Origin: Bacteroidota bacterium
Lineage (GTDB): Bacteria > Bacteroidota > Bacteroidia > 2-12-FULL-35-15
Length of the DNA stretch: 64,000 nt
Reading direction: 5' to 3'
Assembly (NCBI GenBank): GCA_947504725.1
Contig: CANNHN010000002.1
Coordinates: 372,001-436,000, forward strand
Numbering within the stretch: the stretch's first letter is position 1; each line of letters begins with the position of its first letter. The position numbers and the translations under genes are program-made. Positions 36,343 through 38,862 of the stretch are shown here, piece by piece. Under the pieces are notes generated by a model that saw nothing but the letters and a program-made list of their open reading frames with translations, had not been told where the DNA came from and did not search any database.

Positions 36343-36909
36343 TTATTTATTGTTGTATGCACTCATCGTGCGTTGTAATCCTATAGTAGCAAAGCCTTGT
36401 ATCATTTCAATTGCAAGTTTTACTCTTGGTTCTAATCCTTTTTTTTCTTCATCATCCCATTTACCTAAAACGTAATCCACTTGTTTGCCTTTTGCGAATT
36501 CACTTCCAACTCCAAAACGTAATCGTGCATATTCAGAACTTGCTAATGTTTCTTGAATACTTTTTAATCCATTGTGTCCCCCATCACTTCCTTTTCCTTT
36601 CATTCGAACCGATCCGAAAGGCAAAGCTAAGTCATCTGTAATGATTAAAACATTTTCTTTTGCAATTTTCTCCGCTTGCATCCAATAGTTTACCGCTTTT
36701 CCACTCAGATTCATGTAAGTAGAAGGTTTTATTAAAAACAATGTTTTTCCTTTAAACTTATAAGTTGCAATAGAAGCGAGCTTGTCAACACCAAATTTGA
36801 AATTGTTTTCTTTTGCAATTGAATCCAAAATAGTGAATCCGATATTGTGTCGTGTATCTTCATACTCCTCTCCAATGTTTCCTAATCCAACAATTAAAAA
36901 TTTACTCAT
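36343..36909 (-). CDS. pth: Peptidyl-tRNA hydrolase
   Basis: This 188-residue enzyme recycles peptidyl-tRNA that drops off ribosomes. Motifs are LIVGLGNIGEEYEDTRHNIGFTI (with catalytic His), KPSTYMNLSGKAV, IITDDLALPFGSVRMKGKGSDGGHNGLKSI and YARLRFGVG. It follows prs and rplY, a common Bacteroidota order. The ATG is 5 nt after a TATTTTTG box, so it probably has its own leaderless promoter. Confidence 0.95.
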   Translation of the reverse strand: MSKFLIVGLGNIGEEYEDTRHNIGFTILDSIAKENNFKFGVDKLASIATYKFKGKTLFLIKPSTYMNLSGKAVNYWMQAEKIAKENVLIITDDLALPFGSVRMKGKGSDGGHNGLKSIQETLASSEYARLRFGVGSEFAKGKQVDYVLGKWDDEEKKGLEPRVKLAIEMIQGFATIGLQRTMSAYNNK

Positions 36910-37001: not shown

Positions 37002-37634
37002 TTATTTTTTTGCAGCAGGCTTAGCGGCAGCAGCAGCAGGTGTAGCAGCAGCAGCAGCAGGTGCAGCAGTTTTTGTTTCTTCAACAGCAGCAGCACGCGT
37101 AACTTGAACGTTAACAACAGTAACGTTAGCAGCATTTAAAAATGTTAGTCCATCAAATTTCAAGTCACTAACTCGAACCAAATCACCGATTTCTAAGTTG
37201 TTGATAGCGATATCAATTGTATCAGGCATTTTTTCTACTAAACCTTTTACTTTTAATGTTTTTAATTTTTTATTCAATTTACCACCATTTCTAACTCCTG
37301 GAGAAGTTCCAGTTGTTTTTACTGGGATGCTCATTGTTACTGGTTTCCCAGCAATGATTTCTAAAAAATCAACATGTAAAAGATTGTCTTTTACACTGTG
37401 GAATTGTGCTTCTTGTAAGATAGCTTTGAATTTTTTTCCGTCAACGTCTAAGTCCACTGTATTTACGTGTGGAGTATAAATCAAGTCTTTAAAGTCTGCT
37501 TCTAACACAGAAAAGTGAACTTGTTCTTTACCTCCGTACAATACACATGGCACTCGCTTTGCATTTCTCAAAGCTGTTGCATCTGTTTTCCCTACGTTCG
37601 CTCTTGGCGAACCGCTAATAGATACTGATTTCAT
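37002..37634 (-). CDS. rplY: 50S ribosomal protein L25/general stress protein Ctc
   Basis: This 210-residue protein binds 5S rRNA. The N-terminal L25 beta barrel (ISGSPRANVGKTDATALRNAKRVPCVLYGG) is followed by the TL5/CTC C-terminal domain (HVDFLEIIAGKPVTMSIPV, LVEKMPDTIDIAINNLEIGDLV). The last ~35 residues are an Ala/Pro/Lys tail, a low-complexity extension common in Bacteroidota. Two competing hairpins in the spacer before its start may regulate it. Confidence 0.95.
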   Translation of the reverse strand: MKSVSISGSPRANVGKTDATALRNAKRVPCVLYGGKEQVHFSVLEADFKDLIYTPHVNTVDLDVDGKKFKAILQEAQFHSVKDNLLHVDFLEIIAGKPVTMSIPVKTTGTSPGVRNGGKLNKKLKTLKVKGLVEKMPDTIDIAINNLEIGDLVRVSDLKFDGLTFLNAANVTVVNVQVTRAAAVEETKTAAPAAAAATPAAAAAKPAAKK

Positions 37635-37653
37635 TTTGTTATTTTATTTGTTT

Positions 37654-37700
37654 GTTGATTGTTGCGCCAGCCAATCAACGTTTATATATAATTGGCGCAA
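37654..37700 (-). promoter_or_regulatory. Candidate L25 leader: two mutually exclusive hairpins in the prs-rplY spacer
   Basis: In the mRNA the order is A1 (TTGCGCCA), 13 nt, B1 (GTTGATTG), 2 nt, A2 (TGGCGCAA), immediately B2 (CAATCAAC), then 19 nt to the rplY ATG. A1/A2 and B1/B2 are perfect 8-bp complements that interleave. With no linker between A2 and B2 a full pseudoknot is sterically unlikely, so the two hairpins probably compete. There is no terminator T-run, so translational control is likelier. Confidence 0.5.
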
Positions 37701-37712
37701 TGTCTTTACTAT

Positions 37713-38648
37713 TTATGATACAATAAAATTGGAGCTGATGGATTCGAAGCTATGCACACTGTGCAATACTTTTCCGAATAATTCGGCAACCGATAGTACT
37801 TTAATTTTGCTAGATTGTTGAGTTAAAGGAATGGTATCTGTTACCACCAACTCTAAAATTCTTGATTTTTCAATGTTTTCGTAAGCCTTTCCGGAAAGAA
37901 CAGCATGTGTACAAACTGCTCTAACACTATTAGCGCCTCTATCCAACATCATGTCCGCTGCTTTTGTCAATGTTCCGCCAGTATCAATTAAGTCGTCCAC
38001 CAATACAATGTCTTTCCCTTCTACATCACCAATAACGGTCATACTCTCAATTACATTTGCTTTTGCACGTTGTTTGTAACAAATAACGATATCTGATTTC
38101 AAAAATTTTGCATAAGCATTCGCTCTTTTAGAGCCACCCATATCTGGTGCCGCCATCGTTAAATTTGGCAAATTCAATCCTTGTATATAAGGTAAAAAGA
38201 TAGAAGAAGCATATAAGTGATCAACAGGGAAATCGAAAAATCCTTGAATCTGATCTGCATGTAAGTCCATGGTAACAATGCGTGTAGCTCCTGCCGCAGA
38301 AAGCAAGTTCGCAACCATTTTAGCGCCAATAGCAACACGGGGTTGATCCTTACGATCCTGACGAGCATACCCAAAATAAGGTAAAACCGCGATAATTTGA
38401 TGAGCTGAAGCGCGTTTTGCCGCATCAATCATCAATAAAAGTTCAAATAAATTATCTACAGGAGGCATAGTGGACTGTATAATAAACACATCGCTTCCAC
38501 GCACAGTTTCTTCGTAAGAAGTCTGCATTTCCCCATCGCTAAAGCGAAGAAGAGAAACTTTACCCAATTCTTGTCCATACGTTTTAGCGATGTTTTCAGC
38601 TAAAGTGCGAGTGGTGGAGCCCGAGAATAATTTTACTTTATAGTTCAT
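37713..38648 (-). CDS. prs: Ribose-phosphate pyrophosphokinase
   Basis: This 311-residue enzyme makes PRPP from ribose-5-phosphate and ATP for nucleotide, His and Trp synthesis. Motifs are FSDGEMQTSYEETVRGSDVFIIQST, YFGYARQDRKDQPRVAIGAKMVANLL, MDLHADQIQGFF, the flexible loop with PDMGGSKRANAYAK, and the PRPP loop DDLIDTGGTL. It is first in a prs-rplY unit. Confidence 0.96.
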   Translation of the reverse strand: MNYKVKLFSGSTTRTLAENIAKTYGQELGKVSLLRFSDGEMQTSYEETVRGSDVFIIQSTMPPVDNLFELLLMIDAAKRASAHQIIAVLPYFGYARQDRKDQPRVAIGAKMVANLLSAAGATRIVTMDLHADQIQGFFDFPVDHLYASSIFLPYIQGLNLPNLTMAAPDMGGSKRANAYAKFLKSDIVICYKQRAKANVIESMTVIGDVEGKDIVLVDDLIDTGGTLTKAADMMLDRGANSVRAVCTHAVLSGKAYENIEKSRILELVVTDTIPLTQQSSKIKVLSVAELFGKVLHSVHSFESISSNFIVS

Positions 38649-38782: not shown

Positions 38783-38862
38783 GCCCAGGTGGCGGAATTG
38801 GTAGACGCGCTGGTCTCAAACACCTGTGGGAAACCGTACCGGTTCGACTCCGGTCCTGGGTA
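38783..38862 (+). tRNA. tRNA-Leu (anticodon CAA)
   Basis: An 80-nt cloverleaf: acceptor GCCCAGG/CCTGGGT (G1-U72 wobble), D arm with GGCGGAATTGGTAGACGC, anticodon loop CTCAAAC giving CAA, a short class II variable arm, and T arm ACCGG-TTCGACT-CCGGT. CCA is not encoded. The anticodon stem has a U28-U42 mismatch. The 3' 55 nt recur at 42480-42534, making this the likely attachment site of the following accessory region. Confidence 0.93.

Follow-up and report, generated by a model that had tools for sequence, protein, structure and literature searches.

Autoregulation by L25 has been described only for relatives of E. coli (gammaproteobacteria) that carry a one-domain bL25, with a hairpin as the operator. 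A 2024 review finds these L25 leader features confined to species with a short bL25 (PMC10931766). The E. coli rplY leader (Aseev, Bylinkina and Boni 2015), as it is portrayed in PMC10931766 and PMC7247131, takes the form of an irregular hairpin and has a weak GAGA Shine-Dalgarno sequence. Within Bacteroidota, Eckert and Weinberg 2020 describe leaders for L13, S4, S15 and S16, and their Table 1 has none for L25 (PMC7247131).

Here we consider the spacer between prs and rplY in a stretch of Bacteroidota DNA of 64,000 nucleotides, the whole of which we call the window. Like the E. coli rplY leader in those accounts, it is a structured piece of mRNA directly ahead of rplY, and translational repression by L25 is presumed for it. 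It departs from that portrayal in being a predicted pseudoknot, in being A-rich with no Shine-Dalgarno sequence, in preceding the gene of a two-domain bL25 (TL5_C), in lying behind prs and in belonging to another phylum. None of the marks of the enterobacterial L25 leader (irregular hairpin, weak GAGA Shine-Dalgarno, short bL25) is seen in the window element. With the leaders of Eckert and Weinberg (PMC7247131) it shares the phylum, a definition by covariation and a place beside a ribosomal-protein gene, but the genes and the structures are different. No Rfam 15 family reaches its gathering score over the element in the window or 17 relatives, and loose thresholds give chance matches only. The literature searched, with subscription papers mostly outside it, holds no other report of an L25 leader in Bacteroidota. 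The initial annotation of this locus knew of none in the phylum either, and that agrees with both searches. We argue that the element is very probably a previously undescribed L25 leader in Bacteroidota, of the known ribosomal-protein-leader kind.

In the E. coli rpsO (S15) leader, a pseudoknot next to the start codon lets a ribosomal protein regulate the translation of its own message. Its sequence and its protein are unrelated to those considered here. The rpsO pseudoknot overlaps the ribosome binding site, whereas the present element ends about 20 nt upstream.

The prs-rplY spacer

The locus lies on the minus strand, and its features are given in the direction of reading.

37713..38648 (-): prs, ribose-phosphate pyrophosphokinase, upstream in the presumed operon (Pfam and NCBIfam)
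37635..37712 (-): prs-rplY spacer, 78 nt, which houses the putative leader
37693..37700 (-): A1, 5' strand of stem A, TTGCGCCA
37680..37692 (-): L1, AU-rich loop, 13 nt (13-19 nt in the family)
37672..37679 (-): B1, 5' strand of stem B, GTTGATTG
37670..37671 (-): L2, 2-nt linker GC (1-4 nt in the family), predicted bridge over the deep groove of stem A
37662..37669 (-): A2, 3' strand of stem A, TGGCGCAA
37654..37661 (-): B2, 3' strand of stem B, CAATCAAC, which abuts A2 (L3 of 0 nt)
37635..37653 (-): 19-nt initiation region, A-rich and unstructured, with no Shine-Dalgarno sequence
37002..37634 (-): rplY, two-domain bL25 with Ribosomal_L25p and TL5 C-terminal domain (Pfam and NCBIfam)
36343..36909 (-): pth, peptidyl-tRNA hydrolase, next downstream gene (Pfam and NCBIfam)

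Presumably rplY is co-transcribed behind prs. In the RNA sense the spacer runs ATAGTAAAGACA, A1 TTGCGCCA, ATTATATATAAAC, B1 GTTGATTG, GC, A2 TGGCGCAA, B2 CAATCAAC, AAACAAATAAAATAACAAA and then the ATG. The arms thus stand in the order A1-B1-A2-B2. Both stems are perfect over 8 bp, the whole element is about 47 nt long in the window, and B2 ends 19 nt before the ATG of rplY. These arms, their coordinates and the 19-nt distance had been given in the initial annotation, and all are exact on re-reading the spacer. It had also called the arrangement unlikely by chance. The interleaved pair scores higher than any of 60 dinucleotide-shuffled spacers (z 3.2), and the comparison with other genomes excludes chance.

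Minimum-energy folding of the window spacer gives stem A only and is unremarkable (z -1.3). That stem B is missing there is expected, since minimum-energy programs have no means of representing pseudoknots. RNAalifold applied to the family spacers also gives stem A only, pseudoknots being outside its scope. Comparing spacers reveals stems that ordinary nested folding misses. An intrinsic terminator of prs was considered for this spacer and rejected: there is no U-tract, the tail is A-rich, and no terminator-like site is found on the minus strand.

Conservation and covariation

The window's family comprises 36 genomes, 34 of which have a match to rplY, and this set was not chosen by the pattern. 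Among the genomes compared, the window's order consists of this family and genus only. In 34 of the 34 genomes with an rplY match, prs lies upstream and the spacer has the layout A1-L1-B1-L2-A2-L3-B2. Across these 34 genomes stem A ranges from 5 to 9 bp and stem B from 5 to 10 bp, while L1 is 13-19 nt, L2 1-4 nt and L3 0-2 nt. The letters of both stems vary. Stem A changes from TTGCGCC/GGCGCAA to TTGCACC/GGTGCAA, TTACATCC/GGATGTAA or TGTGCC/GGCACG. Stem B changes from GTTGATTG/CAATCAAC to GTTGACTG/CAGTCAAC, GCTGTTTG/CAAACAGC or TTTGATTG/CAATCAAA.

The whole family spacers were aligned with MAFFT by sequence only, and in this alignment 89.1% of the cells are paired. Double (compensatory) changes occur in 12 of the 16 pairs, and a core alignment is similar. 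All five measures lie above those of 500 of 500 shuffles of the MAFFT alignment. If the partner is slid by 1-3 columns, pairing falls to 30-54%. We also used a null that respects phylogeny, with alignments simulated on a tree of the flanking coding DNA and the substitutions on each branch kept. Column pairs were scored by an APC-corrected G statistic, in a purpose-written test that resembles R-scape. Tested within the set of 16 predicted pairs, four reach significance, one in stem A (E 8e-5) and three in stem B (E 0.002, 0.005 and 0.02), so both helices are represented. Predicted pairs make up four of the five top-scoring column pairs among 3403. The initial annotation had proposed a covariance analysis, and had said that its reading would fall if homologous spacers lacked compensatory changes or if close relatives had an absent or unstructured spacer. 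It withstood this: 12 of 16 pairs are doubly changed, four are significant in the R-scape-like test and both stems are present in all 34 family genomes.

One can imagine that these are overlapping inverted repeats acting at the level of DNA, either as an operator or as the remains of an insertion. The sequence does consist of two inverted repeats. However, the interleaved arms stay complementary although their letters change, which is not expected of operators, and there is a single copy per genome. We consider this explanation the most improbable of those discussed here, to the point of being nearly negligible.

Proposed coexistence of the two stems

The initial annotation proposed a structured leader at rplY, and the covariation upholds a conserved RNA structure tied to this gene. 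It went on to argue that the zero linker between A2 and B2 favours alternative hairpins instead of a pseudoknot. We think this is probably wrong, since the stems share no nucleotide, the linkers are constrained and the geometry permits both stems. The geometry was modelled on idealised A-RNA phosphate positions. Classical H-type stacking with an L3 of 0 nt would need L3 to span 30-37 A, and on that stacking the argument for alternative hairpins would be sound. If A2 and B2 instead form a continuous strand, L2 has only the deep groove of stem A to cross, a distance of 10-12 A for 6-8 bp, and L1 with its 13-19 nt spans 42-48 A. The model relies on the polarity of the deep groove, and continuous stacking of this type is known from kissing loops. 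In the 3'-stacked helices of kissing loops the loop is almost fully paired and stacked 3', and few nucleotides bridge the deep groove. Our model has the same near-complete loop pairing, 3' stacking and short deep-groove bridge. It differs in being intramolecular, with a long L1 that joins the partner strand to the hairpin.

The best reading is therefore a compact pseudoknot in which we infer that stems A and B coexist. Hairpin B would hold A2 in its loop, and A2 would pair with the upstream strand A1. A2 and B2 would stack as one continuous strand, and L2 (1-4 nt) would bridge the deep groove of a stem A of 5-9 bp. Coexistence is the simpler reading because no base is shared, both stems are in every family genome and the linkers are within limits. 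The other route would be a switch, in which hairpins A and B exclude each other and one permits rplY translation while the other blocks it, the choice perhaps falling to a ligand. The stand-alone energies of the two stems are similar (median -7.8 and -7.5 kcal/mol) and only stem A appears in minimum-energy folding, as a switch might have it. Yet with no nucleotide in common, topology alone would have to make the stems compete. An L2 of 1-4 nt and an L3 of 0-2 nt over 34 genomes are what a joint fold would require, and A-form geometry allows both stems at once. We regard a switch as improbable, roughly one chance in eight.

Position and copy number

The element is single copy. Its best match adjoins rplY in 33 of the 36 family genomes, matches elsewhere in these genomes are weak (E at least 0.002), and it stands at no other gene in the 36 family genomes scanned. 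B2 lies 14-26 nt from the ATG in 29 of 34 family genomes. In five family genomes an extra hairpin puts the pseudoknot 46-51 nt from the ATG. The five are L004, L010, L011, L012 and L014. Their extra hairpin is GC-rich, some 25-30 nt long (e.g. CCCACCTTCGCTAAAGCTTCGGTGGG), and separates the pseudoknot from the start of rplY. A similar hairpin precedes the pseudoknot in L023. By its looks the extra hairpin is a palindromic mobile repeat or an additional stem. Between the prs stop and A1 the family genomes have 6-106 nt, and with so variable a spacing a frameshift or readthrough signal of prs was set aside.

The element has been seen only where prs and rplY are adjacent and co-directional. This raises the question of an operon-internal element with no ligand, which would protect or punctuate the prs-rplY message and set the ratio of the proteins as a nuclease barrier, a processing site or an aid to re-initiation after prs. 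Such a role would explain why the element always lies between the two genes, why A1 is often within about 15 nt of the prs stop and why it is missing where rplY stands apart from prs. Against this, its distance from the rplY start varies less than that from the prs stop, and so elaborate a covarying pseudoknot is more typical of protein or ligand binding. We judge the operon-internal role unlikely, although it is the strongest of the competing explanations. Separation of the two genes does not decide the matter. In f16 (L043, L051, L052 and L054; also L215-L219) prs and rplY are apart and the element is at neither gene, so gene separation gives no assignment to rplY.

Because the neighbouring gene prs makes PRPP, the ligand could instead be a prs-linked metabolite or protein, such as PRPP or purine nucleotides. 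The element would then be riboswitch-like and would tie the ribosome parts to nucleotide supply. Several small riboswitches are pseudoknots too. However, the element is downstream of prs and not ahead of it. Riboswitches usually recur at several genes, and scanning the family genomes revealed this element at no gene besides rplY. Beyond short A-rich linkers no strictly conserved unpaired core was seen. We consider a riboswitch-like role very unlikely, well behind the switch and the operon-internal role.

Other Bacteroidia

The same plan in other letters is found upstream of rplY in further Bacteroidia families and in named records. A1 lies near the prs stop and is usually CYCGY. The hairpin loop opens with AA and then RCGRG, and the RCGRG strand abuts the 3' arm of the hairpin. 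Linkers in these families have a median L2 of 2 and a median L3 of 0. In f39 the element is in 12 of the 12 genomes fetched, L055 among them by eye only. It is also in single or several genomes of f6, f26, f28, f35, f36 and f11, where the shuffle test supports some cases only weakly. Many lineages within the class are without it. Among the other-family loci compared, it is absent where the spacer is shorter than about 45 nt and at rplY without prs upstream.

We assembled 34 non-family sequences, which were picked since the pattern was visible in them and whose tree was built from the same alignment. With that selection, stem A is paired in 99.4% of the cells and stem B in 83%, and 76 cells are doubly changed vs 25 in shuffles. 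Under the phylogeny-aware null the eight strongest of 1653 column pairs in this set are all predicted pairs. The further high column pairs 40-61, 36-65 and 35-66 lengthen stem B and outline a further, outer stem. A covariance model was also built from the non-family version; too weak for whole genomes, it has matches in 7 of 296 genomes, each of them immediately before rplY.

In bins of Bacteroidales and related groups, rplY has no prs ahead of it. There a promoter-like TATCTTTGC/TACTTTTGC lies directly upstream and there is no leader (L162, L163, L173, L174, L176, L182, L190, L200, L202, L204, L206 and L208-L212). This suggests that the leader is lost when rplY gains its own promoter. The named family records are metagenome-assembled genomes, for example Bacteroidetes bacterium RIFCSPLOWO2_12_FULL_35_15 (L140). 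The carrier L187, labelled Sphingobacterium thalpophilum, is a metagenome bin; its label may be wrong, or the contig may be mis-binned.

Probable autogenous control by bL25

Taken as a whole, the analysis points to a real and widely kept RNA structure with L25 as its probable ligand. We presume that rplY is the regulated gene and bL25 the ligand. Our main reading, to which we give a probability of about 0.6, is that the leader would be a cis-acting pseudoknot of the rplY mRNA for autogenous translational control by bL25. We favour autogenous control because other ribosomal-protein leaders act so and because of the criterion of Eckert and Weinberg, with rplY as the sole downstream ribosomal-protein gene (PMC7247131). 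The structure in the 5' region of this ribosomal-protein gene is backed by covariation, as in leaders of this kind, and it is consistently upstream of rplY and not elsewhere (33 of 36 genomes and 7 of 7 other-family matches). Likeness to 5S rRNA is common but not required in such leaders. There is no sequence similarity between the spacer and the organism's 5S rRNA, as 285 of 300 shuffles score as high.

A mechanism can be sketched. Free bL25, by itself or together with its 5S RNP, would bind and stabilise the pseudoknot. Once stabilised, the pseudoknot at about -20 would hinder 30S loading on the A-rich initiation region. Output of L25 would thereby track available 5S rRNA. We lean somewhat towards a class of L25 leader that is new and particular to the phylum: a 3'-stacked pseudoknot that two-domain bL25 (or the 5S RNP) would read and that evolved independently of the enterobacterial hairpin. 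If this is true, it would be a second, independent solution to the L25 leader, in a phylum that largely initiates without Shine-Dalgarno sequences. The two-domain L25/Ctc is poorly understood, and it would gain an autogenous RNA target that is not copied from 5S rRNA. At about 47 nt the element is small enough for binding and structure to be directly testable.

The surroundings also hold tRNA genes. One lies at 38783-38862 (+) of the window, upstream of prs and on the opposite strand, and tRNA genes are also present in many of the prs-rplY loci of relatives scanned against Rfam.
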